Program-made: the position numbers and the translations under genes
Assembly: GCF_002222615.2 (NCBI RefSeq)
Contig: NZ_CP022412.2
Coordinates: 3,906,001-3,970,000, forward strand
DNA: 64,000 bases
Reading direction: 5' to 3'
Origin: Bacteroides caccae
GTDB taxonomy: Bacteria; Bacteroidota; Bacteroidia; Bacteroidales; Bacteroidaceae
Notes under the pieces: generated by a model
Database searches by the model: none
The model's input: the letters and a program-made list of their open reading frames with translations, nothing else
What the model was told of the DNA's origin: nothing
Shown here: piece by piece, positions 7,508 to 53,370 of the stretch
Numbering within the stretch: position 1 is the stretch's first letter
Layout of the letters: the number at the start of each line of letters is the position of its first letter

Positions 7508-7639
7508 GTTTCTTGGCTTGAAACAAAGTGTTTCCTTATAGGAAACTTTTAGTTTCAAGCCTTTGGAACTACAGTTTCAAGGCGGTGAAACAATAGTTTC
7601 TCACTGATGAAACTATTGTTTCAAGCTGCTGAAACTAAT
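7508..7639. repeat. 22-bp-period dyad array A (GTTTC/GAAAC), six units
   Basis: Six consecutive units start exactly 22 bp apart (7508, 7530, 7552, 7574, 7596, 7618). Each is GTTTC, 7-8 variable bases, GAAAC, then 4-5 variable bases. Only the third unit deviates in its right arm (GGAAC, which still pairs as RNA by G-U). The bases between arms differ from unit to unit. GAAACAATAGTTTC (7587-7600) and its exact complement (7609-7622) also form a 14-bp stem. The array lies between queC and queF. No open frame or known element accounts for it. Confidence 0.85.
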
Positions 7640-7749
7640 TTAACCCGGCGTGTTCCAAACGAAACTTACGGCCGTTTTATAAATGAGAACTTTCTTGTGA
7701 CAGCAGGATGTGACAGCAGAAAATGCATTTTAATCTCTATGTAGAGATA

Positions 7750-8415
7750 TTATTGATTCTTACTTTTTAAATACTTCTCCAATCCTTCCCGGCGCAACGT
7801 GCAAGCCGGACAATGTCCACAACCATCCCCCGGGATACCATTATAACACGTCAATGTCTCATGACGTATCACATCCAGCACTCCCAGTTCATCCGCCAAA
7901 GCCCATGTCTCGGCCTTATCAATCCACATCAACGGAGTGTGGATTACAAATTGCTCGTCCATAGCCAAGTTCAACGTCACATTGAGAGACTTGATAAACG
8001 CATCGCGACAATCGGGATAGCCACTGAAATCTGTTTGGGAAACTCCCGTTATCAGATGATTGATGCCACGCTCACGGGCATAGACAGCCGCTATGCTCAG
8101 GAAAAACAGGTTGCGTCCCGGCACAAATGTATTCGGAAAACTATCCGCAGGTTTTTCCTGATCCATTACCATGCTCGTATCCGTCAATGAGTTATGTCCC
8201 AGGCTTCCGATGAAGGAAACATCCATCACATCAAATTCCACTTCAGCTTTCCGGGCAATCTCTCGCGCCAGCTCTACTTCCTTCTCATGTTTCTGCCCAT
8301 ACAGAAAACTCAAAGCATATACTTTCTTGAAGTTACGTTTTGCCCAAAACAGACAAGTAGTCGAGTCCTGCCCACCGCTGAATACCACCAATGCGCTTTC
8401 TTTATTCATATTCAT
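7750..8415 (-). CDS. queC: 7-cyano-7-deazaguanine synthase QueC
   Basis: ATP-dependent conversion of 7-carboxy-7-deazaguanine to preQ0, the nitrile precursor of queuosine. The PP-loop 'SGGQDSTTC' lies near the N-terminus (residues 13-21). The zinc-binding C-terminal cysteines are in '[16 protein letters not shown]'. Length (221 aa) is typical. The start is at 8415 (MNMNKES); the second Met two codons in is equally possible. It follows the queuosine-precursor transporter by 38 bp on the same strand, and queF lies further downstream, so the three genes probably work together. Confidence 0.96.
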
Positions 8416-8453
8416 AAAGTTATAAAAGGGTAAGGTTATGTTCTCTATTTCAA

Positions 8454-9134
8454 TTATATATCTCTCACTTTCAGCACGTTGTAAGAAATATCGGTGTCGT
8501 AGACATCGCTACCGTCTATCTTCTTAATGGCTTTCACTACACGGATAGTCACCGGAAGGATAATAACCTCATACATGGATTTCAGTATGATCTGAATACA
8601 CATCATGATAAGCAATTCCCGCCACGCAATGATACCTCCGAAAGCAACCGGGAAGAAAATCAACGAGTCGGCCGTCTCACCGACAAGGGTCGACAGAATG
8701 GCACGTGCCGAGAAATGCCGTCCCCGGCTGGCCACTTTCATCTTACTCATCACATACGCATTGAGGAATGAACCAACCAAGAATGCCATCAAACTGGCAG
8801 CCACAATACGGGGTGCCATGCCGAACACAAAATCGAAATGCTCCTCCCCTTCCCAAAAAGGAGCGGCAGGGATCGCAACAGCTATCAGCCCAAGAGCAAC
8901 AACAAAGAAATTCATAGCGAAGCCGCTCCAAATGATAAGGCGCGCTTTCTTGAATCCCCAAACTTCGGCGATGCAATCATTGATAATATAAGAAATAGGA
9001 AAAACCAATAATCCGGCGGTTACGGTCAGACTACCGATCTGGATTACTTTCGTTTCAAGAAGATTGGCTGCAATGAGGCACACATTAAAAAGAATGCCCA
9101 GCAGCATAAAGGGTACAGATACTTTCTCTTTCAT
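8454..9134 (-). CDS. Queuosine precursor transporter (VUT/YhhQ family)
   Basis: Inner-membrane protein of 226 aa with about six hydrophobic helices, in the vitamin-uptake-transporter / QPTR (YhhQ) family that imports preQ0/preQ1. Family-like stretches are '[20 protein letters not shown]' and, in the middle, '[15 protein letters not shown]'. It is the first gene of a probable queuosine unit (transporter-queC-queF) behind a TATCTTTG promoter at 9218-9225. Family membership is well supported; the substrate is inferred from the neighbours. Confidence 0.92.
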
Positions 9135-9217
9135 AATTCCTGTTTTTTACGTGGTGTTCTAGAATACACGACCGTTATTCACGGCATCATACGTCTCTTT
9201 TTAATTCTTTCGGGGTG

Positions 9218-9225
9218 CAAAGATA
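9218..9225 (-). promoter_or_regulatory. Bacteroidales -7 box for the queuosine genes
   Basis: Minus-strand TATCTTTG, 83 bp upstream of the transporter start. No clear TTTG -33 box is visible. Confidence 0.6.
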
Positions 9226-9293
9226 GAAAATAAAACTGAAAGTATCGCTTTCTTCTTATCAGATTCTATACGCCGGGGAAACACGGAAATAAA

Positions 9294-9334
9294 AAACAAG
9301 CCTCCCCATCAGTTTCGCATTCAGACAGGAAGGC
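9294..9334 (-). terminator. Terminator of the ECF sigma factor gene
   Basis: On the minus strand AGCCTTCC pairs with GGGGAGGCT, followed by TGTTTTTT. It lies about 50 bp after the sigma-factor stop codon. Confidence 0.7.
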
Positions 9335-9382
9335 TCATTCACTTTGACCTTAAAACACATCACTCAATTAAAAAGAACTGTA

Positions 9383-9886
9383 TCAGGAGAAGTCCTTCAG
9401 TTCTTCCTTCAACCGCTTGCGGATAAAGAACAAACGGCTTTTCACTGTCCCCATCGGCAATCCTAATTTCTCGGCAATTTCTCTATACTTAAATCCGGCA
9501 ACGAACATCTGAAAAGGAACTTTCATATCTTCGGGGATCGAATGTATCACGCGATACAGTTGCTTCATGTCATAAGCAAATTCAAATCTGTCGCTGTCTT
9601 CATCTTCTATCAGACTTTGCTGATTGATAGAATACGTATCATCTATAATATTCATCTCGCGGACGGTACGGCGATAGTTGTTGACGAAAATATTGCGCAT
9701 AATTGTAAACATCCATCCTTTCAAGTTCTTGGCATGCGCAAATTTCTCGTGGTTATCCAAAGCCTGCAATACGCAATCCTGAACTAAATCGTTGGCAGAG
9801 TCACGGTCCGACGTTAATTTATATGCAAAGCGATGCAGATCAGATTCCATCGCCAGTATTCCTTGAGTAAATTCTACTTTTTCCAT
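9383..9886 (-). CDS. ECF-type RNA polymerase sigma factor
   Basis: Extracytoplasmic-function sigma-70 factor, 167 aa. Region 2 includes 'DLVQDCVLQALDN' and '-10'-binding 'MFTIMRNIFVNNYRR'. Region 4 helix-turn-helix is 'FKYREIAEKLGLPMGTVKSRLFFIRKRL'-like (read as REIAEKLGLPMGTVKSRL). The ATG at 9886 matches the family start; a longer frame to 9955 exists but is unlike sigma factors. No anti-sigma gene adjoins it, so its trigger is unknown. A divergent porin gene begins 162 bp away and may be a target, but this is only inference. Confidence 0.93.
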   Translation of the reverse strand: MEKVEFTQGILAMESDLHRFAYKLTSDRDSANDLVQDCVLQALDNHEKFAHAKNLKGWMFTIMRNIFVNNYRRTVREMNIIDDTYSINQQSLIEDEDSDRFEFAYDMKQLYRVIHSIPEDMKVPFQMFVAGFKYREIAEKLGLPMGTVKSRLFFIRKRLKEELKDFS

Positions 9887-10048
9887 CGTCGTATTTCTTT
9901 TATCTAATTGGTACGGTACAAAGATCCGCCTTTTTAGAATCATTATAAATAGCAATTCTTCCGATTAGTTTGGCAATTTTTCCTTTGGCCTTTCAACCAT
10001 TTCTTTTTTTAGTTGTTCATTGGGCATTCACCTAAAACTTAACTTATA

Positions 10049-11338
10049 ATGAAAACAAGCTTTAAAATGGTAGCTATGCTACTGGGGATAGGAGTTTTCC
10101 CCGTCTGTGCCCAGGCACAAAAGAAAGTAGTCATCGAAGATGAGGAACCCAATTCGATCATGTTTGTCTCACGGGATAAAGCGGGCGATGAAATCATCCG
10201 TATCATGAACGACCGTTCGCAGATGCGTTTCCATGACCCGAACGCGCCTCGCTTCCTGCTTACCGACCAAAAGGGAAAATTCGCCCTCGGTATCGGTGGC
10301 TACGTTCGTGCTACGGGAGAGTATGACTTTAATGGAATCGTTGACGATGTGGATTTCTATCCGGCATTGATCGGCCGACCGGGAAAGGATAATTTTGCCA
10401 AAAACCAGTTCCAAATGGATATCACTACTTCTACCCTGTTTCTCAAACTGGTAGGACGCACCAAACATCTTGGTGATTTCGTGGTTTATACCGCCGGTAA
10501 CTTCCGTGGCGACGGAAAGACCTTCGAACTGCAAAATGCTTATGCACAGTTCCTCGGTTTCACAATCGGATACAGCTACGGCTCGTTTATGGACCTTTCG
10601 GCCCTGCCTCCTACTATCGACTTCGCCGGTCCGAACGGTTCAGCTTTCTATCGTACCACGCAACTAAGTTATATGTGCGATAAACTGAAAAACTGGAAAT
10701 TCGGAGTTTCTATGGAAATGCCTTCGGTAGACGGCACGACCAACAATGACGTAGCAATCAATACTCAACGAATGCCGGACTTCGCCGCTTCCGCACAGTT
10801 CAACTGGAACAGCAGCAGCCATATTAAATTAGGTGCGATTGTCCGCAATATGACTTATTCGAGCAATGTGCACGATAAGGCTTACTCAAAGACCGGATTC
10901 GGCCTGCAAGCCTCTACAACGTTTAATATCACAAAGAAATTGCAGGCATACGGACAATTCAATTATGGTAAAGGGATCGGTTCTTATCTGAATGATTTAA
11001 GCAATCTGAATGTTGACCTTGTTCCCGACCCTGACAATGAAGGCAAGATGCAGGTTCTTCCAATGTTGGGTTGGTATGCAGGATTGCAGTACAACATTAC
11101 GCCGAATGTATTTGTCTCCGGAACGTACAGTTTATCCAGACTTTACTCTGAAAACGGCTATCCTAGTGCAAACCCCGATTCGTATCGCAAAGGGCAATAT
11201 CTTGTAGCCAATGCTTTTTGGAATGTAAGCGGTAATCTTCAAGTCGGTGTCGAATACTTGAGAGGCTGGCGCAGTGATTTCAGTTCTTCAACGAGCCATG
11301 CAAACCGGTTGAATATGCTGGTGCAGTATTCTTTCTAA
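10049..11338 (+). CDS. DcaP-like outer-membrane porin
   Basis: 429-aa beta-barrel protein with a signal peptide ('IGVFPVCAQAQ'), many alternating aromatic/polar strands and a C-terminal Phe ('MLVQYSF') as required for outer-membrane insertion. 'GIGGYVRATGEYDFNG' and 'NAYAQFLGFTIGYSYGSFMD' resemble the DcaP/porin family, which form trimeric channels for small anionic solutes. The gene is monocistronic, ending at a strong bidirectional terminator shared with the convergent FadL-like gene. The substrate is unknown. Confidence 0.85.
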   Translation: MKTSFKMVAMLLGIGVFPVCAQAQKKVVIEDEEPNSIMFVSRDKAGDEIIRIMNDRSQMRFHDPNAPRFLLTDQKGKFALGIGGYVRATGEYDFNGIVDDVDFYPALIGRPGKDNFAKNQFQMDITTSTLFLKLVGRTKHLGDFVVYTAGNFRGDGKTFELQNAYAQFLGFTIGYSYGSFMDLSALPPTIDFAGPNGSAFYRTTQLSYMCDKLKNWKFGVSMEMPSVDGTTNNDVAINTQRMPDFAASAQFNWNSSSHIKLGAIVRNMTYSSNVHDKAYSKTGFGLQASTTFNITKKLQAYGQFNYGKGIGSYLNDLSNLNVDLVPDPDNEGKMQVLPMLGWYAGLQYNITPNVFVSGTYSLSRLYSENGYPSANPDSYRKGQYLVANAFWNVSGNLQVGVEYLRGWRSDFSSSTSHANRLNMLVQYSF

Positions 11339-11352
11339 GACAAAAAAATAAA

Positions 11353-11389
11353 GAAAGCCGCCTCAAGACAATGTCCGAGACGGCTTCTT
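11353..11389. terminator. Bidirectional terminator between porin and FadL-like genes
   Basis: AAGCCGCCTC pairs with GAGACGGCTT around a short loop, with A and T runs on both sides, between convergent stop codons. Confidence 0.8.
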
Positions 11390-11416
11390 TATATATAAAG
11401 GTCGGATTATGAAATC

Positions 11417-12754
11417 TTAGAACTTGTAGTCTACACCAAGACCGAACACCTTATTAGTACGGCTGTATGTAGTTGATGAAGCTCCAAGAGCTGTTTCTGT
11501 CATTTTATTATAGTCCTTGTAGTTTGTCCAGAAATAAGCAACATTCATCGTCAAATGCTTCGTCATTTTGATTGCGGCACCAAAACCAAGTGAATAAGAA
11601 TCGCATGAGAAACTAATATCGCTCTGGAAATCATCAGCCAATCCATAATCTGTATTTTGATAACCACCGCTAATCGTCAGTTGTTTAGTCACATCCCACT
11701 CTGCACCAAGTAGAATCTCGTGTGTACCATGTTTCAAAGCTTTCTGCTTGTCATTGGCCATACCGGCAGCCTTATCGAAGAAATGATGATATTCTACTGT
11801 TGCACGAAGTGTAGGAAGGATTTCATAACCAACGGCGGCAGTCAATAAAGCAGGAATATCACTCGGCGTATTTACACCGTCCTTATAATCAGCCAACGGA
11901 TTTCCTTCATCCCCCATTACATTCCCCATCTGACGAACTTCCGCTTTCTTGGTCTTATTCTCAAGATTCAAGCTTGTCATGAACTCATATTTCAAACCGA
12001 TATTCCATTTACCCAGTTTCACATCGGCTCCAAGAATAGGCGTAATTCCCCAACCTGTCTGGTCACAATCCAATTCGATACCTGCTAATTCCGTACCTGC
12101 CGGCATACCCGGCAAGTCTGCTTTCACTTTCGCAGTCAGAAAGCCTTCATAACCACCACTGAAATAGTTCATACGTCCACCGGCAAAAACACCCAGCCAA
12201 TCGTTAACCTTATATGACAAGCCTAATTGAACGCCATAAATGAACTGGCTTCCGTCCATTGCACTATTGATTGTGTACATATTAGGAGTAACTTTGCCAC
12301 TTGCAGCTTGATAAATCTGTCCCATTACCATTGAATCGAACATTCCCAAACCGTCATCGAAAGAAGCCTTTCCTCCTCCACCGCCAACAGCGAAGCTACC
12401 GGATACAGTCCAGTCTCCTTTTTTATAAGCACCTTGGAAACTAGGAATAAAAGGAGCAGAAGCTTTACCCTTATAATAACGTCTGTGCCCGTCTTCCGGG
12501 AACAGTGGAAACGTCATATCTATATTACGCGTTTGATAAGCACTTTGTCCGTTCAAAGAAAGATAAAGACCGTCGCCCGGCAAGAAAGCCAGACCGGCAG
12601 GATTGGAATAAACACCGTCAATATCAATGGAAGCACCGCGTGCTAACATTCTAAGGAAAGCCACATGTTGATTAGTATTTGTCAGAAGACCTCCGGCAAA
12701 AGTTGGAATTGAAACGATTAACATCACAAATCCAATCAAGGAAATTTTTCTCAT
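11417..12754 (-). CDS. OmpP1/FadL-family outer-membrane transporter
   Basis: 445-aa outer-membrane barrel of the FadL/TodX/OmpP1 family, which carry hydrophobic compounds such as fatty acids and aromatics across the outer membrane. The signal peptide ends 'SIPTFAGG'. Next comes the family-typical N-terminal hatch 'NQHVAFLRMLARGASID' and 'GVYSNPAGLAFLPG'. The final strand is 'KVFGLGVDYKF', a C-terminal Phe. It is transcribed alone behind a TATCTTTG box at 12783-12790 and converges on the porin gene. Substrate not predictable. Confidence 0.9.
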   Translation of the reverse strand: MRKISLIGFVMLIVSIPTFAGGLLTNTNQHVAFLRMLARGASIDIDGVYSNPAGLAFLPGDGLYLSLNGQSAYQTRNIDMTFPLFPEDGHRRYYKGKASAPFIPSFQGAYKKGDWTVSGSFAVGGGGGKASFDDGLGMFDSMVMGQIYQAASGKVTPNMYTINSAMDGSQFIYGVQLGLSYKVNDWLGVFAGGRMNYFSGGYEGFLTAKVKADLPGMPAGTELAGIELDCDQTGWGITPILGADVKLGKWNIGLKYEFMTSLNLENKTKKAEVRQMGNVMGDEGNPLADYKDGVNTPSDIPALLTAAVGYEILPTLRATVEYHHFFDKAAGMANDKQKALKHGTHEILLGAEWDVTKQLTISGGYQNTDYGLADDFQSDISFSCDSYSLGFGAAIKMTKHLTMNVAYFWTNYKDYNKMTETALGASSTTYSRTNKVFGLGVDYKF

Positions 12755-12782
12755 CTAAATCTTTTTTAAATTATTTCGGGCG

Positions 12783-18143: not shown

Positions 18144-18151
18144 TATCTTTG
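18144..18151 (+). promoter_or_regulatory. -7 box for the methyltransferase gene
   Basis: TATCTTTG 27 bp upstream of the ATG at 18179. Its position rules out the upstream in-frame start at 18149. Confidence 0.65.
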
Positions 18152-18178
18152 CCAACTAAAACAATCGTAACGACCAAT

Positions 18179-18910
18179 ATGGCAACAACAATTCTCATCC
18201 CGGAAAAAGACCCAATGGGGGCTGCTATCTCCGATTTTTTCAACCTCCACAGAGCTGACCGCTTGCGAGTTTTTTCTTCTCAATTCGAAGAAGATGAAAT
18301 TCCTGTCAAGGAGTTGTTCCGTTCCATGCCCTCCATGCCCATGCTGGAACGTACTGCCCTACAAATGGCCACAGGACAAATACTGGACGTAGGCGCAGGA
18401 AGCGGATGTCACGCCCTGGCACTTCAGGATATGGGAAAAGAGGTTTGTGCCATTGATATTTCTCCGCTATCTGTCGAAGTAATGAAGCAACGAGGAGTCA
18501 AGGATTCCCGTCTTATCAACCTCTTTGATGAAACATTCACAGAAACATTCGACACCATTCTTATGCTTATGAACGGCTCGGGAATCATCGGCAGACTAAG
18601 CAATATGCCTGATTTTTTCCGACGAATGAAACGTATCCTCCGCCCCGGCGGATGTATATTGATGGATTCCAGCGACTTACGATATCTGTTCGAAGAAGAA
18701 GACGGCAGCATAGTTATCGACTTAGCCGGAGATTATTACGGAGAAATTGATTTCCGGATGCAATACAAGAGTATAAAAGGAGACACATTCGACTGGTTAT
18801 ATATAGATTTTCAGACACTTAGCCTATACGCTTCCGAATGTGGCTTTAAAGCAGAACTTGTGAAAGAAGGAAAGCATTATGATTATCTGGCTAAGCTTAG
18901 CATTGTTTAG
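18179..18910 (+). CDS. Class I SAM-dependent methyltransferase
   Basis: 243-aa Rossmann-fold methyltransferase. Motif I is 'ILDVGAGSGCHAL' (~65), motif II acidic 'VCAIDISPLSVEVM', motif IV 'FDTILMLMNGSGI', and motif VI/VII 'ILRPGGCILMDSSD'. The substrate is unknown. The gene stands alone, and its 3' end runs into the 22-bp-period array B, whose last hairpin probably terminates it. Confidence 0.88.
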   Translation: MATTILIPEKDPMGAAISDFFNLHRADRLRVFSSQFEEDEIPVKELFRSMPSMPMLERTALQMATGQILDVGAGSGCHALALQDMGKEVCAIDISPLSVEVMKQRGVKDSRLINLFDETFTETFDTILMLMNGSGIIGRLSNMPDFFRRMKRILRPGGCILMDSSDLRYLFEEEDGSIVIDLAGDYYGEIDFRMQYKSIKGDTFDWLYIDFQTLSLYASECGFKAELVKEGKHYDYLAKLSIV

Positions 18911-18922: not shown

Positions 18923-19010
18923 AAAATAGTGACGGGATGCTCTTTCGATAGTATCGCCATATCCTAAAAATAGTAACGCTATCCTGTTGTGATAGCGTTA
19001 CTATTTTTAT
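18923..19010. repeat. 22-bp-period dyad array B (ATAG/CTAT), four units; last two form a terminator
   Basis: Four 22-bp units each carry ATAG at the same offset (18926, 18948, 18970, 18992), followed after five bases by CTAT or a one- to two-base variant. Units 1 and 2 are degenerate. Units 3 and 4 are exact complements over 18 bp (18966-18983 and 18991-19008, 7-base loop, AT-rich base of the stem), an ideal bidirectional terminator between the convergent methyltransferase and TlpA genes. Confidence 0.8.
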
Positions 19011-19067
19011 TGTACACGAAAGTTTTACGATTCTTCCTGAGATACACCTGATGAAATGTTCTTTATC

Positions 19068-19670
19068 CTATTTCAGCATTTCATTAATCGTCTGCACCAG
19101 TGAAGCAAATTCTTCCTCATTGTACAAACGGGTTAGCTTTACTATTTTTCCTTCTTTATCTATCAAAACATTCCGCGTTATGCCGGACTCACGCAATGCA
19201 TATTTTGCAAAAATATCTGCACCGGGATCCAACCCCAAAGGATAAGTGACTCCGGTAGACTTTGCAAAGGCGAGCACTTTATCAAGCGGCTCGTCACGGT
19301 CAATACCAATCAGGGCAAAGTCTGCATTATCTTTATGCTTCAACCAAATGTCCTTCTCTATAAACGGCATTTCCTTCCGACAAACACCACACCAACTTGC
19401 CGTGAACTGCAACATTACCACTTTACCACGGAGAGAAGATAAAGTCACCTGCTTACCGTCAGTCAGAGTTATGGTAAAGTCTGGTGCTACCTCACCTACC
19501 TTCACGATATATCCCGTGCTATCTGCTTGAGTAGTTATCACGTCTCCAACTACTTTCGTACTATCCGATGCCATTTCAGTGGCAGCCATTCCTTTCTTCT
19601 GACCGGAACAAGCTAATAGACTTACAGCTACAAACGCCACACCACACACATTCATAATTTTCTTTTTCAT
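19068..19670 (-). CDS. TlpA/ResA-like thioredoxin-fold lipoprotein
   Basis: 200-aa periplasmic thiol-disulfide protein. It has a lipobox ('AVSLLACSG'), then a ~35-residue linker and an AhpC/TSA-TlpA type thioredoxin domain. The active site is 'ASWCGVCRKEMPF' (CGVC), and cis-Pro is in the 'GVTYPLGLDPG' region. It reduces or isomerises disulfides in the envelope, or supports cytochrome c maturation, but no client adjoins it. A TATATTTG box at 19694-19701 probably drives it, divergent from tRNA-Thr. Confidence 0.9.
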   Translation of the reverse strand: MKKKIMNVCGVAFVAVSLLACSGQKKGMAATEMASDSTKVVGDVITTQADSTGYIVKVGEVAPDFTITLTDGKQVTLSSLRGKVVMLQFTASWCGVCRKEMPFIEKDIWLKHKDNADFALIGIDRDEPLDKVLAFAKSTGVTYPLGLDPGADIFAKYALRESGITRNVLIDKEGKIVKLTRLYNEEEFASLVQTINEMLK

Positions 19671-30185: not shown

Positions 30186-30340
30186 TATCTTTGCCCCGTT
30201 GAAACATTCTACGATTCAACATATACATCCCTAATTCATAATAAAAACAAAACGTATGCTCGCATATCTGTGACCGGAGAGTCATAGTAATGCTGTCCAT
30301 AATTCAGCAAAAAAGAAATATTAATAACTTACCATACTAT
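30186..30340 (+). promoter_or_regulatory. rho promoter and ~140-nt leader
   Basis: TATCTTTG at 30186-30193 is followed by a long untranslated leader to the ATG at 30341. The leader holds small hairpins (GTTGAA/TTCAAC at 30198-30220; ATGC/GCAT near 30255) but no open frame of note. Rho genes are often autoregulated through their leader, so this is a plausible control region. Confidence 0.55.
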
Positions 30341-32539
30341 ATGTATAACATTATCCAATTAAACGACAAAGATCTGTCGGAACTTCAAGTTATTGCCAAA
30401 GAGTTAGGCATAAAAAAAACAGACTCATTAAAAAAGGAAGACCTTGTTTACAAAATACTCGATGAACAAGCAATCGCCGGAGCCACAAAGAAAGTTGCCG
30501 CAGACAAGCTTAAAGAAGAACGCAAAGAAGAACAAAAGAAAAAGCGTTCACGCGTAGCGCCTGCCAAGAAAGATAACAAAGTAGTTTCCGCAACCAAGGA
30601 AGGAGAAGCTGAGAAAGCCAAAGAAGCTGCTCCTGCCAAGCCACAACAGCCTTCTAAAAAAGAGGAAAGTGCAAATAAAGAAAAAGAGACTCCTGCTGTT
30701 GAAGTTAAAGCAGAAAATACCGCAGCTCCTAAACGTAAAGTAGGCCGTCCGCGTAAAAATGCCGATGCAGCAGAGCAAAAAGAAGTTGAAAGCGTGAAAA
30801 CTGCAACTCCGGCAACTCCTAAAGTAACGGAAGATAAAGTAGTTACTGAGAAAGCTCCTGAAGTAATAGAAAAAGCAGTCCCGGCACAAGCTCCCGAAAA
30901 GAAAACAAAAGCCAACAAACCTGCTGAAGAGAAGAAAGTAGTAGTGAAACCGCAACCGCAAAAGAAAGCCGAACCCGTTATAGACGAAGAAAGCAATATC
31001 TTATCCGGTGCCGACGACGATGATTTTATTCCTATCGAAGATCTGCCTTCAGAAAAGATAGAACTTCCCACCGAACTTTTTGGAAAATTCGAAGCCACCA
31101 AAACTGAACCGGCACAAACTGCTACCGAACAACAAGCACCACAGCCACAACAACAGGCTCATCAGCAACAACAGCAACAACGTCCACGCATTGTCCGTCC
31201 GCGTGACAACAATAATGGCAATAATAATGCTAGCAATAGTAACAATAACGCCAATAATAATAACAATAATAACTTCCAACGTAACAATAACCAAAATCAG
31301 AACCAGCAGCGTGTACCGATGCCGCGTCCTGCCCAGCCAAACAACGCGAACGAAAATCTTCCGGTACCACAACAGCAGCAGGAACGTAAAGTTATTGAGC
31401 GTGAAAAGCCTTACGAATTCGATGACATCCTTAATGGAGTAGGCGTACTGGAAATTATGCAGGATGGATACGGATTCCTCCGTTCTTCCGATTATAATTA
31501 CCTTTCTTCTCCTGACGATATCTATGTATCACAGTCGCAAATCAAGTTATTTGGCCTGAAAACCGGTGACGTGGTAGAAGGAGTTATCCGCCCGCCCAAA
31601 GAAGGAGAGAAATATTTCCCGTTAGTAAAGGTATCGAAGATTAACGGACGTGACGCCGCTTTCGTTCGCGACCGTGTTCCTTTCGAACACCTGACGCCGC
31701 TTTTCCCGGATGAAAAGTTCAAACTCTGCAAAGGCGGTTATTCGGATTCCATGTCTGCCCGCGTAGTAGATCTTTTCGCTCCAATCGGTAAAGGTCAACG
31801 TGCTTTAATCGTAGCCCAGCCTAAAACCGGTAAGACAATTTTAATGAAAGACATTGCAAATGCCATTGCAGCCAATCATCCGGAAGTATACATGATTATG
31901 TTGCTTATCGATGAACGTCCGGAAGAAGTAACAGATATGGCGCGCAGCGTCAATGCCGAAGTTATCGCTTCTACCTTTGATGAACCGGCAGAGCGCCACG
32001 TGAAAATCGCAGGTATCGTATTGGAAAAAGCAAAAAGACTGGTAGAATGCGGCCACGACGTAGTTATATTCCTTGATTCTATTACTCGTCTGGCACGTGC
32101 ATACAACACAGTATCTCCTGCATCGGGCAAAGTACTTTCCGGTGGTGTGGATGCAAACGCACTTCATAAGCCGAAACGTTTCTTTGGTGCTGCCCGTAAC
32201 ATCGAGAACGGTGGTTCACTGACAATCATCGCAACTGCATTGATTGATACCGGTTCTAAAATGGACGAAGTTATCTTCGAAGAATTCAAAGGTACAGGTA
32301 ACATGGAGTTGCAACTCGACCGCAACCTGTCCAACAAACGTATCTTCCCGGCAGTCAACATTACCGCATCCAGTACTCGTCGTGACGATCTGTTACTTGA
32401 TAAGACAACTCTCGACCGTATGTGGATTCTCCGTAAATATCTTGCCGACATGAATCCGATCGAAGCAATGGACTTCGTAAAAGACCGTCTGGAAAAAACC
32501 AGAGACAACGATGAATTCCTGATGAGCATGAACAGCTAA
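30341..32539 (+). CDS. rho: Transcription termination factor Rho with long disordered insert
   Basis: RNA-dependent hexameric helicase that terminates transcription. 732 aa, versus ~420 for E. coli Rho. The Rho_N domain (1-45) is followed by a ~190-residue Lys/Ala/Glu/Pro-rich region, an acidic patch ('[18 protein letters not shown]') and a Gln- then Asn-rich tract (~265-345). Then come the RNA-binding cold-shock-like domain ('[18 protein letters not shown]') and ATPase with Walker A '[12 protein letters not shown]' and Walker B '[13 protein letters not shown]'. I chose the ATG at 30341, the Rho_N start. In B. thetaiotaomicron the disordered region of Rho has been reported to drive phase separation needed for gut fitness. 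Confidence 0.97.
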
Positions 32540-42743: not shown

Positions 42744-44129
42744 ATGAAGAAAAGTACAAAACTAATTGTGGCACTGTTGGTAGTGGTAGCGGCATTAGCA
42801 GTCACTTATCGACTTATGCACCGCGTACCTTCTGCCGATCTGGAAGCAAATGCGCAGATGCAGCAGATTATTACGGATGCAGGATGTTTGAGATGTCATA
42901 CCTCAACACCGGACCTACCGTTCTATGCAAGCATGCCTGTGGCCGGAAAAATTGTAATGGAAGACGTCAGCAAGGCATACCGTGCCTTCGACATGACCCA
43001 AATGGAGGCAGATCTGGAAGCAGGACAGCCCCTCAATCCGGCAGACCTGGCCAAAATAGAAAAAGTGATCCTCGACGGAAAAATGCCCCAGGCAAAATAT
43101 TACCTTGTGCATTGGGGGGCTTCCTTCAATGACGCAAAAAAGGAAGTCGCACTGAACTGGGTAAAAAGTCACCGTATGGGAATGTATACGGACATTACAG
43201 TAGCACCGGAATTTGCCAACGAACCCATTCGTCCCATTGCCGATTCTATCGCAGTGGATGTACGCAAAGTCGTTCTGGGTAATTTGTTGTATCATGACAC
43301 ACGTTTATCTGCTGACAATACCGTATCATGTGCCAGTTGCCACGGGTTGGATACAGGCGGCGTGGACAACAAACAATATTCCGAAGGTGTAGGCGGACAG
43401 TTTGGTGGCGTCAATGCCCCGACAGTATACAACGCCGCATACAATTTCGTTCAATTCTGGGATGGCCGTGCCGGAACTCTTGCCGAACAAGCTGCCGGTC
43501 CTCCGTTGAATCCGGTGGAAATGGCTTGCGAATCATTCGACCAGATTATCGATAAATTGGCTGAAGACAAAGATTTCGTATCCGCATTCAACGAAGTGTA
43601 TGCCGACGGATTGAGTGAGAAGAATATCACAGACGCCATTCAGGAGTTTGAAAAGACTTTGCTGACTCCCAACTCACGCTTCGACCGCTATCTGAAAGGA
43701 CAAAAAGATGCAATCACCGAAAACGAAATCGCCGGATACGAACTTTTCAAGAAGTATGATTGCGCAACCTGCCATGTAGGAGAAATCCTGGGAGGGAAAT
43801 CTTATGAACTGATAGGCGTACAGCACGATTATTTTGCCGATCGACAGGCAGAAATGACTGAAGAAGACAACGGCCGCTTCAAACAGACTCAAATAGAACG
43901 TGACCGCCACCGCTTCAAAGTGCCCGGTCTGAGGAATATCGAACTGACCGCTCCATATTTCCACGACGGCAGCATGGCTACTATGGATGACGCAGTCCGT
44001 GCAATGGCTAAATACCAGTTGGGCATCGATTTGCCACAACAGGAAGTAGATAAGATTGTAGCCTTCCTCCGCACACTGACCGGAGAGTACAAAGGACAGC
44101 TATTAACGAATAAGAATATGGAAATCTAA
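42744..44129 (+). CDS. Three-haem cytochrome c peroxidase
   Basis: 461 aa, exported by an uncleaved N-terminal anchor ('LIVALLVVVAALAVTYRLM'). It has three CxxCH haem sites: CLRCH (48-52), CASCH (196-200) and CATCH (340-344). The last two belong to the MauG/CcpA di-haem peroxidase domain, and the first to an N-terminal haem-binding domain fused in front, which probably feeds electrons in. It reduces H2O2 in the periplasm. It follows the haem-lyase genes by 20 bp, so apoprotein and maturation machinery are made together. Followed by array C. Confidence 0.93.
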   Translation: MKKSTKLIVALLVVVAALAVTYRLMHRVPSADLEANAQMQQIITDAGCLRCHTSTPDLPFYASMPVAGKIVMEDVSKAYRAFDMTQMEADLEAGQPLNPADLAKIEKVILDGKMPQAKYYLVHWGASFNDAKKEVALNWVKSHRMGMYTDITVAPEFANEPIRPIADSIAVDVRKVVLGNLLYHDTRLSADNTVSCASCHGLDTGGVDNKQYSEGVGGQFGGVNAPTVYNAAYNFVQFWDGRAGTLAEQAAGPPLNPVEMACESFDQIIDKLAEDKDFVSAFNEVYADGLSEKNITDAIQEFEKTLLTPNSRFDRYLKGQKDAITENEIAGYELFKKYDCATCHVGEILGGKSYELIGVQHDYFADRQAEMTEEDNGRFKQTQIERDRHRFKVPGLRNIELTAPYFHDGSMATMDDAVRAMAKYQLGIDLPQQEVDKIVAFLRTLTGEYKGQLLTNKNMEI

Positions 44130-44159: not shown

Positions 44160-44247
44160 GAACAGAGGCTCTATTTGCATCAAACGGAGGCTCTATTTGG
44201 GGTAAACAGAGGCTCTGTTTCACCTAAATAGAGCCTCTGTTTTTTTT
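44160..44247. repeat. 22-bp-period dyad array C (AAACAGAG/CTCTGTTT), four units
   Basis: Four units start at 44160, 44182, 44204 and 44226. Each is a 17-base dyad AAAYAGAGSCTCTRTTT (first base G in unit 1, one more change in unit 2) plus five variable bases. Units 3 and 4 are also complements of each other, and the last ends in eight T, so the array can terminate the peroxidase transcript. The folD promoter starts 26 bp later. Confidence 0.85.
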
Positions 44248-44272: not shown

Positions 44273-44304
44273 TTTGGAGAGTTCAGTTATTTATTTTACT
44301 TTTG
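44273..44304 (+). promoter_or_regulatory. Complete promoter for folD
   Basis: TTTG (44273-44276), 20-bp spacer and TACTTTTG (44297-44304), 27 bp upstream of the ATG. Confidence 0.8.
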
Positions 44305-44331
44305 CCTATCACCAATAAATACTCTGAAAAT

Positions 44332-45213
44332 ATGACTCTGATAGACGGAAAAGCCATTTCCGAACAAGTAAAACAAGAGATTGCAGCCGAAGTAGCCGAA
44401 ATTGTGGCTCAGGGCGGTAAACGTCCCCACCTGGCAGCTATCCTTGTGGGACACGACGGTGGCAGCGAAACTTATGTAGCCGCCAAAGTAAAAGCCTGCG
44501 AAGTTTGTGGGTTCAAATCTTCCCTCATCCGCTACGAAAGCGACGTGACCGAAGAAGAACTGCTTGCCAAAGTACGTGAACTGAATGAAGACAGTGACGT
44601 AGACGGATTCATCGTCCAACTCCCGTTACCGAAACATATCTCCGAACAGAAAGTTATCGAAACGATTGATTACCGTAAGGACGTAGACGGATTCCACCCT
44701 ATTAATGTAGGACGTATGTCTATCGGACTTCCGTGTTATGTATCTGCCACTCCCAACGGTATCCTCGAACTACTGAAGCGTTACAAAATTGAGACTTCGG
44801 GCAAGAAATGTGTCGTACTCGGCCGAAGCAATATCGTCGGCAAGCCTATGGCTGCCCTGATGATGCAGAAGGCTTATCCGGGAGACGCAACCGTCACCGT
44901 ATGTCACAGCCGCAGCAAAGACCTGATAAAAGAATGTCAGGAAGCCGACATTATCATTGCCGCTTTGGGACAGCCCAACTTTGTGAAGGCTGAAATGGTA
45001 AAAGAAGGTGCAGTCGTAATTGATGTAGGTACTACCCGTGTGCCGGATGCAACCAAGAAATCCGGATTCAAGCTGACCGGTGACGTGAAGTTCGACGAAG
45101 TAGCGCCAAAATGTTCTTACATCACCCCCGTACCGGGTGGCGTTGGTCCGATGACGATAGTATCGTTAATGAAAAATACACTTTTAGCCGGTAAGAAAGC
45201 CATTTATCAATGA
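44332..45213 (+). CDS. folD: Methylenetetrahydrofolate dehydrogenase/cyclohydrolase FolD
   Basis: Bifunctional one-carbon enzyme: 5,10-methylene-THF to 10-formyl-THF through the methenyl form. 293 aa with signatures '[15 protein letters not shown]' (catalytic Lys), '[12 protein letters not shown]' and '[13 protein letters not shown]', and C-terminal '[11 protein letters not shown]'. The ATG at 44332 agrees with the promoter position. The stop overlaps the CapA-like gene start (ATGA). Confidence 0.97.
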
Positions 45214-48782: not shown

Positions 48783-48814
48783 ATCCGGGATTTTCTCTAT
48801 TTTTGCTTTGCTTG

Positions 48815-48822
48815 CAAATGTA
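48815..48822 (-). promoter_or_regulatory. -7 box for dnaX
   Basis: Minus-strand TACATTTG 32 bp upstream of the ATG. Confidence 0.6.
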
Positions 48823-48900
48823 CACAAAAAAGTGATAAGTAATAAGGGATAGAGAGAGAAGTTTTGAAGCAGAAGCGATAAGTTTTTAAGTTATTAGTTT

Positions 48901-48908
48901 TATCTTTG
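48901..48908 (+). promoter_or_regulatory. -7 box for the FtsB/DivIC gene
   Basis: TATCTTTG 21 bp upstream of the ATG at 48930; excludes the in-frame upstream start at 48906. Confidence 0.65.
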
Positions 48909-48929
48909 CGGAGATTAAAAAGATTAATT

Positions 48930-49226: not shown

Positions 49227-49229
49227 AGA

Positions 49230-49571
49230 ATGAAGCAACTAGTACCCGCCCTCTTTGGCGTAGGCGCCGTAATGGCCCTCACAGGAGCAGCCGTATTCAT
49301 TACAGGCTGGATTTATGCACCCTACATATATACTATTGGAGCCGGATTCATTGCACTGGCACAAGTAAACACCCCGGTAAAAGGGAAAAGCAAGACACTG
49401 AAACGTCTCCGTGTTCAGCAGATATTCGGAGCACTCGCTCTTATACTGACTGGTGCTTTCATGTTTACCACACGAGGCAATGAATGGATTGCCTGCCTCA
49501 CTATTGCTGCCATACTCGAACTCTACACCGCCTTCCGTATTCCACAGGAAGAAGAAAAGGAAAGGGCATAA
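49230..49571 (+). CDS. Small four-helix membrane protein, unknown function
   Basis: 113 aa with four predicted helices ('LFGVGAVMALTGAAVFITGW', 'YIYTIGAGFIALAQV', 'IFGALALILTGAFMFT', 'WIACLTIAAILELYTAF'). No named family recognised. Starts three bases after the FtsB-like gene stop, so it is co-transcribed and may act in the envelope. Confidence 0.85.
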   Translation: MKQLVPALFGVGAVMALTGAAVFITGWIYAPYIYTIGAGFIALAQVNTPVKGKSKTLKRLRVQQIFGALALILTGAFMFTTRGNEWIACLTIAAILELYTAFRIPQEEEKERA

Positions 49572-49675
49572 AAAAACCTGTCCAAAACTTCACAGCCTAG
49601 AACAGGAACATTATAATTTACATATTTCTAATATAAACAATGAAATCTCTTTTATAAGAGAAAAGCTAAAAAAAG

Positions 49676-50281
49676 TTACTTATTAGCAGCAGGTGAATAT
49701 CTTGCATTCAACCCGTCTACGATTTCTTTTGTGATATTGAACGCGCTATCAGCATAAAGCAGATTATCAAAACCTGTATTACTGAAAATCAAGCTATATC
49801 CATGTGTCTTATTATATTCTTTCAAGAAAGCATTGATAGAATCACGGAACAGCAAACTGTTCTTATTGTTTTCTTCCATTAAACCGTTTTGAAGTTTGTT
49901 ACTCAACTCTTGCAAGTCTTGTTCCATCTTAGCCAAACGATTGTATTCTTGTTGAGCTCTATCCTGTGACAGGAAAGCACCGTTTTCATACTTCTTCTGG
50001 AAGTCTTGTTTTTCCTTATTCAAAGCAGTAGCTTTCTGATTCAGTGTCATACGAACGTTTTCGCTCTTCTTCACCATTGCCTCATTCAAGTCAATACAGA
50101 AGTTATATTTAGCTAATAGCGAATCTATTTCAACATAGGCGATTTTCATTCCTGACAGTTCGGCATTCACCTGAGCCGGAGTTGTTGAAGTTTGATTGTC
50201 AGTTTTGCCGGCACATTGTGAAAATAAAACAATAAACGCAAGAGCAGCCAAACCGTTCATGAGGTAGTTCATTCTATTCAT
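49676..50281 (-). CDS. OmpH/Skp-like periplasmic chaperone lipoprotein
   Basis: 201 aa. Lipobox ('IVLFSQCAGK'), then a Skp/OmpH domain: short strand 'MKIAYVEIDSLLAKYNF', two long coiled-coil helices rich in Lys/Glu/Gln, and a closing strand ('GYSLIFSNTGFDNLLYADS'). It likely holds unfolded outer-membrane proteins. Starts at 50281 or Met four codons in. Follows a small membrane-protein gene by 29 bp on the same strand. Confidence 0.9.
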   Translation of the reverse strand: MNRMNYLMNGLAALAFIVLFSQCAGKTDNQTSTTPAQVNAELSGMKIAYVEIDSLLAKYNFCIDLNEAMVKKSENVRMTLNQKATALNKEKQDFQKKYENGAFLSQDRAQQEYNRLAKMEQDLQELSNKLQNGLMEENNKNSLLFRDSINAFLKEYNKTHGYSLIFSNTGFDNLLYADSAFNITKEIVDGLNARYSPAANK

Positions 50282-50310
50282 AATTTAATAAGTGTATTGT
50301 TTTTAATAAT

Positions 50311-50544
50311 TTAATTCATACTATCGTTCAAGGCTTTTTCCAACTCATCAATAGAAAAACGTGGCTTCTTCTGTGCTTCGCGATCTTGAGACTGTGCACA
50401 CCCAATCCCTTTCTTACGCAGCGCTTTATTCCCACTCACATGACCGTTCGGGAACTTCCCTCCCTTCGTAAAGAATACTTTCACCCCTAATAATACCAGG
50501 GAAATAGCAACTATTAACAAAGTTATCAGTATAGTCTCAACCAT
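50311..50544 (-). CDS. Conserved small membrane protein
   Basis: 77 aa: one N-terminal helix ('ILITLLIVAISLVLLGVKVF'), a Gly/Asn-rich stretch 'GKFPNGHVSGNKALRKKGIG' with 'CAQSQDREAQKK', and an acidic tail. Similar short proteins are common in Bacteroidetes, without known function. Behind a TATCTTTG box at 50565-50572 and upstream of the Skp-like gene. Confidence 0.85.
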   Translation of the reverse strand: MVETILITLLIVAISLVLLGVKVFFTKGGKFPNGHVSGNKALRKKGIGCAQSQDREAQKKPRFSIDELEKALNDSMN

Positions 50545-50564
50545 TTCTATTAATTTTGTGAGTG

Positions 50565-50572
50565 CAAAGATA
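50565..50572 (-). promoter_or_regulatory. -7 box for the small membrane protein and Skp-like operon
   Basis: Minus-strand TATCTTTG 21 bp upstream of the ATG. Confidence 0.6.
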
Positions 50573-50677
50573 GGCTTTAATGAGATATGAGTTCAGATAA
50601 GCCAATCAAATTAACCATATTTAGCAATAGAAGAAGCCAAAACCACTCTTCTATTCCTATTATAAAATAGAAACAGC

Positions 50678-52138
50678 ATGGAAAAAAAAGATTTGAAGCC
50701 GGCCGGCGTATTCAAGTATTTCGAAGAAATCTGCCAGGTGCCCCGCCCTTCGAAGAAGGAAGAAAAAATGATTGCCTACCTGAAGGCATTCGGAGCAAAA
50801 CATAACCTGGAAACCAAAGTGGACGAAGCCGGTAACGTACTTATCAAGAAACCCGCTACTCCGGGAAAAGAAAACCTGCAAACTGTCGTACTGCAATCGC
50901 ATATCGACATGGTGTGTGAAAAGAACAACGACGTTCAACACGACTTCCTCACCGACCCCATTGAAACAGAAATTGACGGTGAATGGTTGAAAGCGAAAGG
51001 TACCACCCTTGGAGCCGACAACGGTATCGGCGTAGCCACCGAACTGGCTATTCTGGCCGACGATAGCATTGAGCACGGTCCGCTGGAATGCCTGTTTACC
51101 GTAGACGAGGAAACCGGACTCACTGGAGCTTTCGCCCTGAAAGAAGGTTTCATGAGTGGTGACATCCTGCTTAATCTCGACTCGGAAGATGAAGGAGAGA
51201 TCTTTATCGGATGCGCCGGAGGTATCGATTCCGTTGCAGAGTTTACTTATAAAGAGGTTGAAGTTCCCGCCGGATATTTCTTCTTCAAAGTAGAAGTGAA
51301 AGGATTGAAAGGAGGACATTCCGGTGGTGACATCCACCTCGGACGAGGCAATGCCAACAAAATACTGAACCGCTTCCTCACCCGCATGGCTACCAGACAT
51401 GACCTGTACCTCTGCGAAATCAACGGCGGTAACCTGCGCAACGCCATTCCTCGCGAAGCATACGCAATCTGCGCGGTTCCCGAAGACGCCAAACATGACG
51501 TCCGCACCGAACTGAATATCTTCACCAGCGAAGTAGAAAACGAGTTATCCGTTACCGAACCGGACTTGCGACTAGTCCTTGAATCGGAAACTCCCCGTAA
51601 AACAGCTATCGATCAGGATACCACCGCCCGTCTGCTGAAAGCTCTGTATGCAGCCCCTCACGGTGTTTATGCCATGAGTCAGGACATCCCCGGACTGGTA
51701 GAAACGTCTACTAATCTGGCTTCTGTCAAGATGAAACCGAACAATGTCATCCGTATCGAAACCAGCCAACGCAGTTCTATCCTGTCCGCACGCGACGACA
51801 TGGCAAATACTGTCCGCTCCGCTTTCCAACTGGCAGGAGCCAATGTTACCTTCGGTGAAGGTTATCCGGGCTGGAAACCGAACCCGCATTCAGCTATCCT
51901 AGAAGTGGCTGCCGAATCATACAAACGTCTATTCGGCGTAGATGCCAAAGTAAAGGCGATTCATGCCGGACTGGAATGCGGTCTGTTCCTCGACAAGTAT
52001 CCGACGCTCGATATGATTTCTTTCGGCCCGACCTTGACAGGAGTTCACTCTCCTGACGAACGGATGCTTATCCCTACCGTAGAGAAATTCTGGAAACATC
52101 TGTTGGATATTCTGGCACATGTACCTGCCAAAAAGTAA
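50678..52138 (+). CDS. pepD: Aminoacyl-histidine dipeptidase (PepD)
   Basis: M20C zinc dipeptidase that cleaves Xaa-His and other dipeptides. 486 aa, with metal-site motifs 'VVLQSHIDMVCEKN' (first His and Asp), 'GTTLGADNGIGVA' (bridging Asp), 'TVDEETGLTGAF' (catalytic Glu, Glu), 'NLDSEDEGEIFIGCAGG' and the C-terminal His in 'GPTLTGVHSPDERM'. A dimerisation lid domain lies at ~190-380. The next gene overlaps its 3' end by 20 bp. Confidence 0.96.
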   Translation: MEKKDLKPAGVFKYFEEICQVPRPSKKEEKMIAYLKAFGAKHNLETKVDEAGNVLIKKPATPGKENLQTVVLQSHIDMVCEKNNDVQHDFLTDPIETEIDGEWLKAKGTTLGADNGIGVATELAILADDSIEHGPLECLFTVDEETGLTGAFALKEGFMSGDILLNLDSEDEGEIFIGCAGGIDSVAEFTYKEVEVPAGYFFFKVEVKGLKGGHSGGDIHLGRGNANKILNRFLTRMATRHDLYLCEINGGNLRNAIPREAYAICAVPEDAKHDVRTELNIFTSEVENELSVTEPDLRLVLESETPRKTAIDQDTTARLLKALYAAPHGVYAMSQDIPGLVETSTNLASVKMKPNNVIRIETSQRSSILSARDDMANTVRSAFQLAGANVTFGEGYPGWKPNPHSAILEVAAESYKRLFGVDAKVKAIHAGLECGLFLDKYPTLDMISFGPTLTGVHSPDERMLIPTVEKFWKHLLDILAHVPAKK

Positions 52139-53216
52139 CGGACAGATAAGCCACTATAAAAAAGGAGATTGTGGTCGTAGCAGAAAAAGAGCAGCTATGG
52201 CCATAATCTTTTTTGTTATGGGCTTCTGCACCCTCTCCTTTGCACAACAAATCCGTTTCAGAGTTGTAAGTTGGAATGTAGAAAACCTATTCGACATACA
52301 TCATGATTCGTTGAAAAACGACCGTGAGTTTCTTCCCGATGCCCTCCGTCATTGGAATTACACCAGATACAAGAAAAAGCTGACTGATATGGCGCGTGTC
52401 ATTACTGCCGTCGGCGAATGGGAACCTCCGGCATTAGTCGGGTTATGTGAGGTAGAAAATGATACGGTACTTCGCGACCTCACCCGCCGTTCTCCTTTAA
52501 AGGAATTGAATTACCGCTATGTCATGACCGACTCTCCCGATTTAAGAGGCATTGACGTAGCATTGCTCTATCAACGGGATTTATTCAAACTCTTGTCTTT
52601 CCGTTCTGTCTCTATTCCGCCCCTGAAACAGTTTCGCCCCACGAGAGATTTGTTGCACGTCAGTGGTTTGCTACTGACCGGAGACACACTGGACGTATTT
52701 GTCTGCCACTTGCCAAGTCGTTCCGGCGGAGCAAAAGAATCCGAACCGTACCGCCTTCATGCAGCCCGAATACTGTACACAGAGGCTGACAGTATTCTCA
52801 ACATACGGCTTCATCCACAAATTATCATTATGGGAGATTTCAATGACTATCCGACCAATAAATCTATTCAGAAAATACTGGAAGCAGAATCTCCTTCGCC
52901 AACTGCTCCTTCTCCTTTAAAGCTTTACCATTTACTTGCCCGAAAAGCCCAATCCAAAAATTTCGGTTCATACAAATATCGGGGAGAATGGGGATTACTC
53001 GATCACCTAATTGTATCCGGTTCTCTACTTAACCCAGCAAACAGTTTTTCCACAAGCGAAAACAAAGCAACCGTTTCCAACCTCCCTTTTCTATTGACCG
53101 AAGATAAGAAATATGGCGATAAGGAACCTTTCCGCACCTATAAAGGAATGAAATATCAGGGGGGTATTAGCGATCATCTGCCAATCTATGTCGATTTTAA
53201 TCTGATTCTTTATTAA
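52119..53216 (+). CDS. Secreted endonuclease/exonuclease/phosphatase-family protein
   Basis: 365 aa, EEP superfamily (DNase I/synaptojanin fold). Motifs: 'FRVVSWNVENLFD' (Asn), 'VGLCEVENDTV' (catalytic Glu), 'IIMGDFNDYPTN' (Asp, Asn) and 'GISDHLPIYVDF' (Asp, His). An N-terminal signal with basic n-region is followed by 'AIIFFVMGFCTLSFAQQ'. The 52119 start keeps the basic residues, but ATG at 52197 is possible. Could be an extracellular nuclease or sugar-phosphatase. The 3' end is followed by array D. Confidence 0.88.
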   Translation: MYLPKSNGQISHYKKGDCGRSRKRAAMAIIFFVMGFCTLSFAQQIRFRVVSWNVENLFDIHHDSLKNDREFLPDALRHWNYTRYKKKLTDMARVITAVGEWEPPALVGLCEVENDTVLRDLTRRSPLKELNYRYVMTDSPDLRGIDVALLYQRDLFKLLSFRSVSIPPLKQFRPTRDLLHVSGLLLTGDTLDVFVCHLPSRSGGAKESEPYRLHAARILYTEADSILNIRLHPQIIIMGDFNDYPTNKSIQKILEAESPSPTAPSPLKLYHLLARKAQSKNFGSYKYRGEWGLLDHLIVSGSLLNPANSFSTSENKATVSNLPFLLTEDKKYGDKEPFRTYKGMKYQGGISDHLPIYVDFNLILY

Positions 53217-53260
53217 TTAAGACCATAAACCTCATCCCAGCATACCTCAGACAAGGGATT

Positions 53261-53370
53261 ATTCTCACCATAGCGAGAAAAAATTCTCCTCATAATGAGA
53301 AAAAATTCTCCTCATAATGAGAAAAAATTCTCACCATGATGAGATTTTTTTCTCATCATGGTGAGAATAC
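53261..53370. repeat. 22-bp-period dyad array D (TTCTC/GAGAA), five units with terminal hairpin
   Basis: Five units start at 53261, 53283, 53305, 53327 and 53349. Each is one base, TTCTC, eight variable bases, GAGAA, three bases (one arm base differs in unit 4). Units 2 and 3 are identical. Units 4 and 5 are exact complements over 18 bp, forming a strong hairpin with T and A runs, which can terminate both convergent neighbours. Confidence 0.85.

Follow-up and report, generated by a model that had tools for sequence, protein, structure and literature searches.

The question raised by this locus is how a repeat can keep its spacing and symmetry when its sequence does not stay the same. The window analyzed here, namely, a 64,000-nucleotide stretch of the Bacteroides caccae genome (NZ_CP022412.2, positions 3,906,001 to 3,970,000; part of a single 4,570,803-base contig), contains four intergenic arrays of short inverted repeats (dyads). 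The coordinates, unit counts, and exact 22-bp steps reported in the first-pass annotation of this DNA were reproduced for all four arrays (Table 1). Its statement that they share no sequence was upheld within the window, whereas each array proved to be one member of a dispersed family recurring elsewhere. Judging from the sequence comparisons, the chances are about even that these are phased operator-like dyad arrays, bound cooperatively by putative family-specific dimers at the 3′ ends of genes.

The 22-bp lattice across the genome and in related genomes

The genome was represented by an even sample of 100 stretches of 20 kb taken at 46-kb intervals, except for the last (2.0 Mb in total, with 213,772 noncoding bases). 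The dyad scan, the similarity scan over steps of 15–45 bp, the gene-context and clustering tests, and the test of G-U and A-C pairs in 16 arrays refer to this sample alone; the tests of core spacing, of identity within and between arrays, of arms and compensatory changes, and of unit number and stems also included 20 stretches picked by family F1, 8 picked by F2 or F3, and the window. The family labels F1–F13 were assigned by eye. Genes were long open reading frames of at least 100 amino acids chosen by a script rather than taken from an annotation, and their contexts and sense strands may err. Genomes and loci are given by the handles used in the analysis where these are needed.

Genome-wide enrichment of 22-bp periodic dyads, on which the first-pass annotation had staked its proposal, was found in the even sample, with 16 arrays at period 22 for three units and 19 for four. 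The corresponding numbers were 21 and 34 at period 11 and 6 and 8 at period 33, and at all other periods from 10 to 70 they were 0–5 and 0–8. Three shuffles of the noncoding sample gave 0–2 arrays at period 22, and the coding DNA of the same sample had no peak at this period. A similarity scan that did not require a dyad (three similar units, direct or inverted) detected 29 arrays at step 22 and 0–3 at any one of the remaining 30 steps between 15 and 45. From the 41 arrays of the dyad scan, nine AT-rich stretches or ordinary hairpins were removed by eye, leaving 32 for the context, clustering, and G-U/A-C tests; extrapolation of 32 plus 5 arrays in 2.0 Mb gives about 85 arrays per genome.

The same spacing was obtained when none was assumed. 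Among neighbouring family cores no more than 60 bp apart, 133 of 143 pairs lay at 22 or 44 bp (F1a, 12/12; F1b, 58/66; F2, 28/29; F3, 14/15; F4, 6/6; F7, 12/12; F9, 3/3), as did both pairs of F6 (2/2), whereas palindromes with permuted arms gave at most one pair at 22 bp for F2, F3, F4, F7, F9, and F1b. Cores standing alone were within or under the range of the controls, except in F7 (25 versus 6–20); thus, in most families the array, and not the single core, is the unit. Further arrays with a 22-bp step and other sequences (CTGACAGTTGTCAGA, AAAGCGTAGGGTTAGC, and TGGCTTTGCCTACGCTTC) were noted at G000:C1:94805, 385171, and 2865346, respectively, the last two without a clear dyad by eye.

Within the window, the 6,375 noncoding bases were dinucleotide-shuffled 200 times, and the dyad strength of each array was compared with the top scores of these shuffles. 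Arrays 3 and 4 were far above chance (29/36 against a shuffle maximum of 24, and 36/45 against a maximum of 28, respectively). Array 1, taken alone, was borderline (32/54; shuffle mean 28.3, maximum 32), and the dyad score of array 2, taken alone, lacked significance (16/36; the shuffles averaged 21.0). Both are nevertheless secure because their relatives recur in the genome: the F1 pattern GTTTC-N7-GAAAC-N5-GTTTC (no more than two mismatches) had 105 genome matches versus 16 for the reversed control, and the ATAG family, F13, was represented by nine arrays in the stretches examined, seven of them with four units. A search of the window against Rfam at gathering thresholds returned only three tRNAs, and known RNA elements were rejected on this account. 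Runs of CAA/AAT-type repeats (periods 21, 12, 15, and others) were noted at 31128-31272, within the open reading frame 30290-32539.

Table 1. Arrays of the window and the module associated with array 1, with their flanking genes and strands (positions are those of the window unless a locus is named)
Feature	Position	Family and unit	Units	Context
Array 1	7508..7639	F1 (GTTTC-N7/8-GAAAC)	6, step 22 bp	Gap between queF (6851-7369, -) and queC (7750-8415, -)
Array 2	18926..19013	F13 (ATAGYGTCACTAT and its reverse complement); perfect hairpin from the last two units, then a T run	4, step 22 bp	Convergent gap; methyltransferase gene (18149-18910, +) and redoxin gene (19068-19670, -)
Array 3	44160..44247	F2 (AAACAGAGNCTCTGTTT); then a T run	4, each 17 bp; spacers 5 bp	Cytochrome c peroxidase gene (42744-44129, +) and folD (44302-45213, +)
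Array 4	53262..53378	F3 (TTCTCA-N6-TGAGAA) and a conserved tail, ACTTTGAGAA	5, step 22 bp	Convergent gap; Exo_endo_phos gene (52119-53216, +) and mechanosensitive channel gene (53388-54563, -)
Leader module	7326-7461	ACCTATCACC repeats and GGTGATAGATT-N8-AACCTATCACC		Beside array 1; associated with the 22-bp array, not part of it
Leader module copies	L035:9297-9431; L031:7439-7562; L228:5276-5397; L034:9848-9877 and 7348-7377			

Of 60 genomes from the genus, 43 had one or more matches to the F1 pattern, but low counts equal those of the reversed control; in 20 of the 60, the matches numbered 10 or more and exceeded or equalled the control threefold. Family F7 was found in 17 of 119 genus genomes and, among 149 sampled genomes of the order (two of this genus), in the genome under study alone. 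Arrays of other sequences were present in other Bacteroidales, namely, two four-unit arrays in L084 and those of L087 and L060 at 22 bp, and that of L057 at 23 bp. A similarity scan covering 51 Bacteroidales loci gave five arrays at 22 bp (one of them AT-rich), two at 23 bp, one at 21 bp, and none at other steps. The similarity scan gave none in 22 loci of other Bacteroidota (42,064 noncoding bases) and none in four loci of the Marinilabiliales type (10,489), the Bacteroidales sample being larger (96,875). The loci were grouped by their record titles, three of the 80 being left out because these were unclear, and four known 23-bp arrays were missed by the scan.

Families, unit number, and probable selection on spacing

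Eight families comprised at least three arrays each (F1–F7 and F13), every family having a conserved palindromic core of 13–18 bp; in addition to the four of Table 1, these were F4 (TGGCACANNTGTGCCA), F5 (TTGGATCTATATGTCCAA-like), F6 (ACCACGGCCGTGGT), and F7 (GTTTATNATAAAC). Families F8–F12 and three without a label were each detected at no more than two loci. Of these, F10, possibly a variant of F1, has an array (TTCCTTTAAAAGGAAC) at 4019281 that adjoins a tyrosine recombinase gene (Phage_int_SAM_5, Phage_integrase; L261:17452-18390). Among the arrays of F2, F3, F4, F6, F7, and F13 with three or more units, to which the count was limited, four units were present in 26 of 35, three in five, five in three, and six in one.

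The identity of units within and between arrays was almost the same in F2 (core 0.766 and 0.770, spacer 0.285 and 0.265, respectively) and in F7 (core 0.856 and 0.852, spacer 0.274 and 0.271). It should be noted that the units were gathered by core match and core conservation in these figures is partly by construction, which does not affect the spacer identities or the two-species arm test given below. The 5-bp spacers of F2 and the 9-bp spacers of F7 were thus at chance identity and of fixed length. Since insertions and deletions should accumulate along with substitutions, random spacers of fixed length point to selection on spacing. In F2, F3, F4, and F7, units were no more alike within an array than between arrays, and in F1b they were slightly more alike within (core 0.607 versus 0.580, spacer 0.492 versus 0.455). 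The equality in F2 and F7 argues against local copying, and each unit there resembles a separate realization of its family word. Consequently, the array-specific spread of a seed hairpin, one of the two origins suggested in the first-pass annotation, is unsupported for the class as a whole, all four families of the window also recurring elsewhere.

The other suggestion, a factor reading shape and spacing, fared better in its second half. Spacing is kept, as described above, whereas recognition of shape only is unsupported because members of a family have conserved arm sequences. In orthologous F1-type arrays of two species (G009 and G012, at the gap near 1404k), arms differed at 9 of 50 positions and the remainder at 29 of 60 (P = 0.0012). 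The related notion that all dyads face the same side of the helix is approximate, as, with 10.5 bp per turn, a 22-bp step shifts each unit by about 34 degrees.

The same data bear on whether these could be neutral minisatellites, formed without function by tandem duplication and by quasi-palindrome correction during replication slippage. Six identical units at 3324844-3324975, the graded neighbouring units in G009, unit numbers that change at the queF–queC gap, and inverted pairs of F3 units that, by eye, change in parallel in two species all agree with such an origin. Random spacers at fixed spacing, the equality within and between arrays in F2 and F7, arms that have diverged less between species than the rest, and a modal unit number of four do not, and we regard this explanation as very improbable.

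Gene junctions, gap history, and recognition as RNA or duplex DNA

Convergent gaps contained 13 of the 32 arrays versus 77 of 482 gaps in general (P = 0.0012), and divergent gaps contained 3 of 32 versus 113 of 482 (P = 0.044). The generalization that the arrays lie at the 3′ ends of genes, made from the window, holds for most of them and not for all, with at least one flanking gene end for 29 of the 32 sampled arrays and for 369 of the 482 gaps. Nearest distances between arrays of one family did not differ from those in label shuffles (P = 0.64), and the chromosomal macrodomains considered when F2 and F3 seemed clustered were rejected. A regulon was likewise rejected, the 30 proteins flanking 16 of the 32 arrays having mixed functions.

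Comparison of corresponding gaps revealed both persistence and replacement. An F1 array occupied the queF–queC gap in five species with differing unit numbers; in the four more distant relatives whose gap fell within the stretch read (L287, L289, L290, and L292), it was short and no array was seen. The gap of array 4 carried F3 in G000 and G021, F4 in G001, and a degenerate F4-like remnant in G009; it measured 5–40 bp between the matched coding ends in G030, G014, G018, G031, G022, G004, G028, and G025, and by eye no such array was present in G006 (73 bp) or G013 (171 bp). At the site of array 3, before folD, ordinary terminator-like hairpins were found by eye in G012, G009, G021, and G001. 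At the 1404k gap, where the genome under study has a near-copy of its F1 arrays at 1469k and 1964k, G009 and G012 carried another F1-type array at the same place. According to these comparisons, some gaps persist while their contents move or are overwritten. In G012 (C1:317827-326894), about 9 kb lies between the matches to the genes flanking array 4, which are neighbours in the window.

The leader module beside array 1 (Table 1) contains an 11-bp inverted repeat around 6–8 bp (GGTGATAGGTT-N6..8-AACCTATCACC) and was also found beside other F1 arrays and one F6 array, and once without an array in the stretch read. Its layout resembles the core site of a tyrosine recombinase. The 5-bp arms and 7-bp spacer of F1 resemble a Bacteroides inversion motif; tyrosine recombinase sites were rejected as an explanation of the class, this likeness fitting F1 only. 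A direct repeat of about 14 bp, AAAAAAAYGCATTT, flanks the whole queF–queC composite (window positions ~7339-7352 and ~7719-7731), and at this gap a direct repeat is also present on both sides in G021 (CGCATTT) and in G012 (TGCATTT).

Arrays at gene ends could act as RNA, either as bidirectional intrinsic terminators or as hairpins blocking exonucleases, in which adjacent units would pair into stems of 13–18 bp. The enrichment in convergent gaps and the terminator-like hairpins of four relatives at the site of array 3 are consistent with this. In arrays 2, 3, and 4, pairing of the two final units gives near-perfect stems. TTTT follows the right-hand last unit in five of nine F13 arrays, including array 2, although in two of the five this is not the sense side by the gene calls. 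Eight T close array 3 and a second F2 array, and the last stem scores 0.89–1.0, with no T run after it, in four of five F3 arrays. Stems of at least 0.9 were also commoner at the end (14 of 67 last stems versus 18 of 171 other adjacent pairs). The earlier statement that arrays end in a terminator hairpin is thus valid for single arrays (2 and 3 with a T run, 4 without) and for parts of some families; across the class it is not. In 53 arrays of seven families, T content was 0.358 at the sense 3′ end, 0.353 at other ends, and 0.333 in spacers, and mean stem quality in the 53 arrays was 0.674 at the sense end versus 0.675 for other pairs.

A selected RNA stem should favour wobble pairs and covariation. 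Compensatory double changes keeping the dyad numbered 5 in five families versus 14.6 in shuffles, a figure inflated by the mismatch limit on units, so that the absence of an excess is firm and a deficit is not. In 16 arrays lying between tandem genes, the sense strand had 36 G-U and 44 A-C pairs, with 13 of each in F1 units alone, i.e., no wobble excess. With both signals absent, recognition as duplex DNA is favoured over a role as RNA hairpins. Moreover, loop length in a hairpin need not be exact, which leaves the fixed 22 bp unexplained, above all where 13-bp cores alternate with 9-bp spacers. Like intrinsic terminators, some arrays combine a hairpin with a T run; unlike them, the class has fixed spacing, and its T runs and mean stem quality gave no class-wide signal. 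On balance, an RNA role for the class appears improbable.

Known repeat systems and the readings weighed

Among the closest known systems is BrickBuilt, described in Porphyromonas gingivalis as a minisatellite within a miniature inverted-repeat transposable element (MITE), with a leader, a tail, terminal inverted repeats, and one unit consensus; 22- and 23-nt repeats in strain W83 are mentioned in the same source (PMC4596501). BrickBuilt resembles the present arrays in its order (Bacteroidales), intergenic position, tandem units of 23 nt of which one half is conserved and the other variable, a copy number that changes by whole units, and possible stem loops (PMC4596501), whereas here there are many unit sequences and the aligned F1 and F3 copies have unrelated flanks. 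Terminal inverted repeats and a shared leader or tail, the MITE features looked for in three F1 and four F3 copies, were not found, although the F3 copies have conserved short ends.

A different resemblance is to the operators of Lrp/AsnC octamers, in which several palindromes per site lie about two turns apart and are recognized in duplex DNA by the four dimers of an octamer; the present arrays differ in lying mostly at gene ends and not at promoters. One Lrp/AsnC paralogue per family was rejected, as the genome has three AsnC-type genes against at least eight families. The three 3.2-kb AsnC-type loci contained no family array, with sub-threshold 22-bp dyad signals in L312 (~1220-1242) and L313 (~2572); an F4 array at 738871 lies about 1.5 kb past one AsnC-type gene, outside its locus. 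Clustered regularly interspaced short palindromic repeats (CRISPR) share the constant period, the conserved palindromic repeat, and short unrelated spacers, but here the spacers are merely 4–9 bp and the units about four. No cas genes were present among the 30 proteins flanking the 16 arrays or beside the four window arrays. We know of no named repeat class that keeps spacing and symmetry while its sequence is free, and a literature search, with subscription journals mostly outside its coverage, gave no paper recognized as describing such arrays.

Under the operator reading, each family would have a dimeric protein of its own that recognizes it as duplex DNA, and neighbouring dimers would be in contact about every two helical turns. 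Such contact would place the spacing under selection and leave the spacer sequence free. The resulting complex of about 88 bp at gene 3′ ends might stop or insulate read-through from both sides or organize the chromosome. Copying or ectopic recombination may carry arrays from locus to locus, and one array may overwrite another in the same gap.

Several observations weigh against this reading. At least eight families would require as many binding specificities. The 22-bp period only approximates a multiple of 10.5 bp, and upstream of folD in G016, G033, G002, and G007 the array step is exactly 23 bp. With the loose F5 pattern, merely 8 of 24 neighbour pairs lay at 22 bp, and some permuted controls also paired at this distance (F1a, six in one control; F5, up to seven; F6, up to four), perhaps through hits to other families. 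Arrays of F1 (F1b) range from three to nine units, and some bear local duplication, as in the six identical units mentioned above and in the G009 array. Spacers of F3 and F4 were not clearly random (within arrays, 0.361 and 0.292; between arrays, 0.463 and 0.379, respectively) and are too few or too similar for the argument from independent units. The preference for 3′ ends could be passive tolerance, and single arrays ending in a good terminator hairpin with a T run probably have an RNA role there. Finally, the F1 arrays at 1404k, 1469k, and 1964k share their unit order (one lacking a unit) and most bases, and their flanks are unrelated.

These near-copies also support a comparison with repetitive extragenic palindromes (REP) and bacterial interspersed mosaic elements (BIME), which are associated with RAYT (REP-associated tyrosine transposase) proteins. 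If the arrays were non-autonomous mobile palindromes of this kind, they would be selfish elements, the lattice reflecting an enzyme that recognizes the cores. Both groups are dispersed intergenic palindromes in regularly spaced arrays, with several families and lineage-limited sequences; the F3 elements, with about 100 bp and conserved ends in common at four loci, and the F7 spacers identical at several loci are further signs of mobility. Unlike REP/BIME, the present arrays keep one exact 22-bp lattice across unrelated sequences, often with four units and, in F2 and F7, with random spacers. A search for the Y1 transposase domain (PF01797) had no matches in the genome, with the control search positive in 5 of 14 known genomes, and the REP/RAYT system was rejected on this account. 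Neither terminal inverted repeats nor a target duplication was seen by eye at the aligned F1 and F3 boundaries. Furthermore, the F2 arrays have alike cores and spacers at chance identity, i.e., no recent common copy, which suggests selection on each copy. Mobility of this kind as the explanation is rather unlikely, and mobility and selection may both be acting.

A broader form of the operator reading, less likely than not, is that the Bacteroidales possess an element class defined by its geometry and not by sequence. Its members would consist of some four dyads with a step of 22 or 23 bp where the 3′ ends of genes meet a gap; their sequence "codes", each having its own reader protein, would be lineage-limited and interchangeable, and the code would be replaced while the gap keeps its element. 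If this were so, loci with the same code could be bridged, the codes thereby working as insulators or as address tags.

Whereas repeat classes are identified by their sequence, the present arrays preserve spacing and symmetry, and in several families also the number of units, with the sequence left free; ordinary repeat finders would consequently split such a class or miss it. Several families have a consensus directly usable as bait. If proteins read these arrays, they would constitute an undescribed set of Bacteroidales DNA-binding factors, possibly providing protein-based transcription ending or insulation, or chromosome organization, at dozens of loci per genome.

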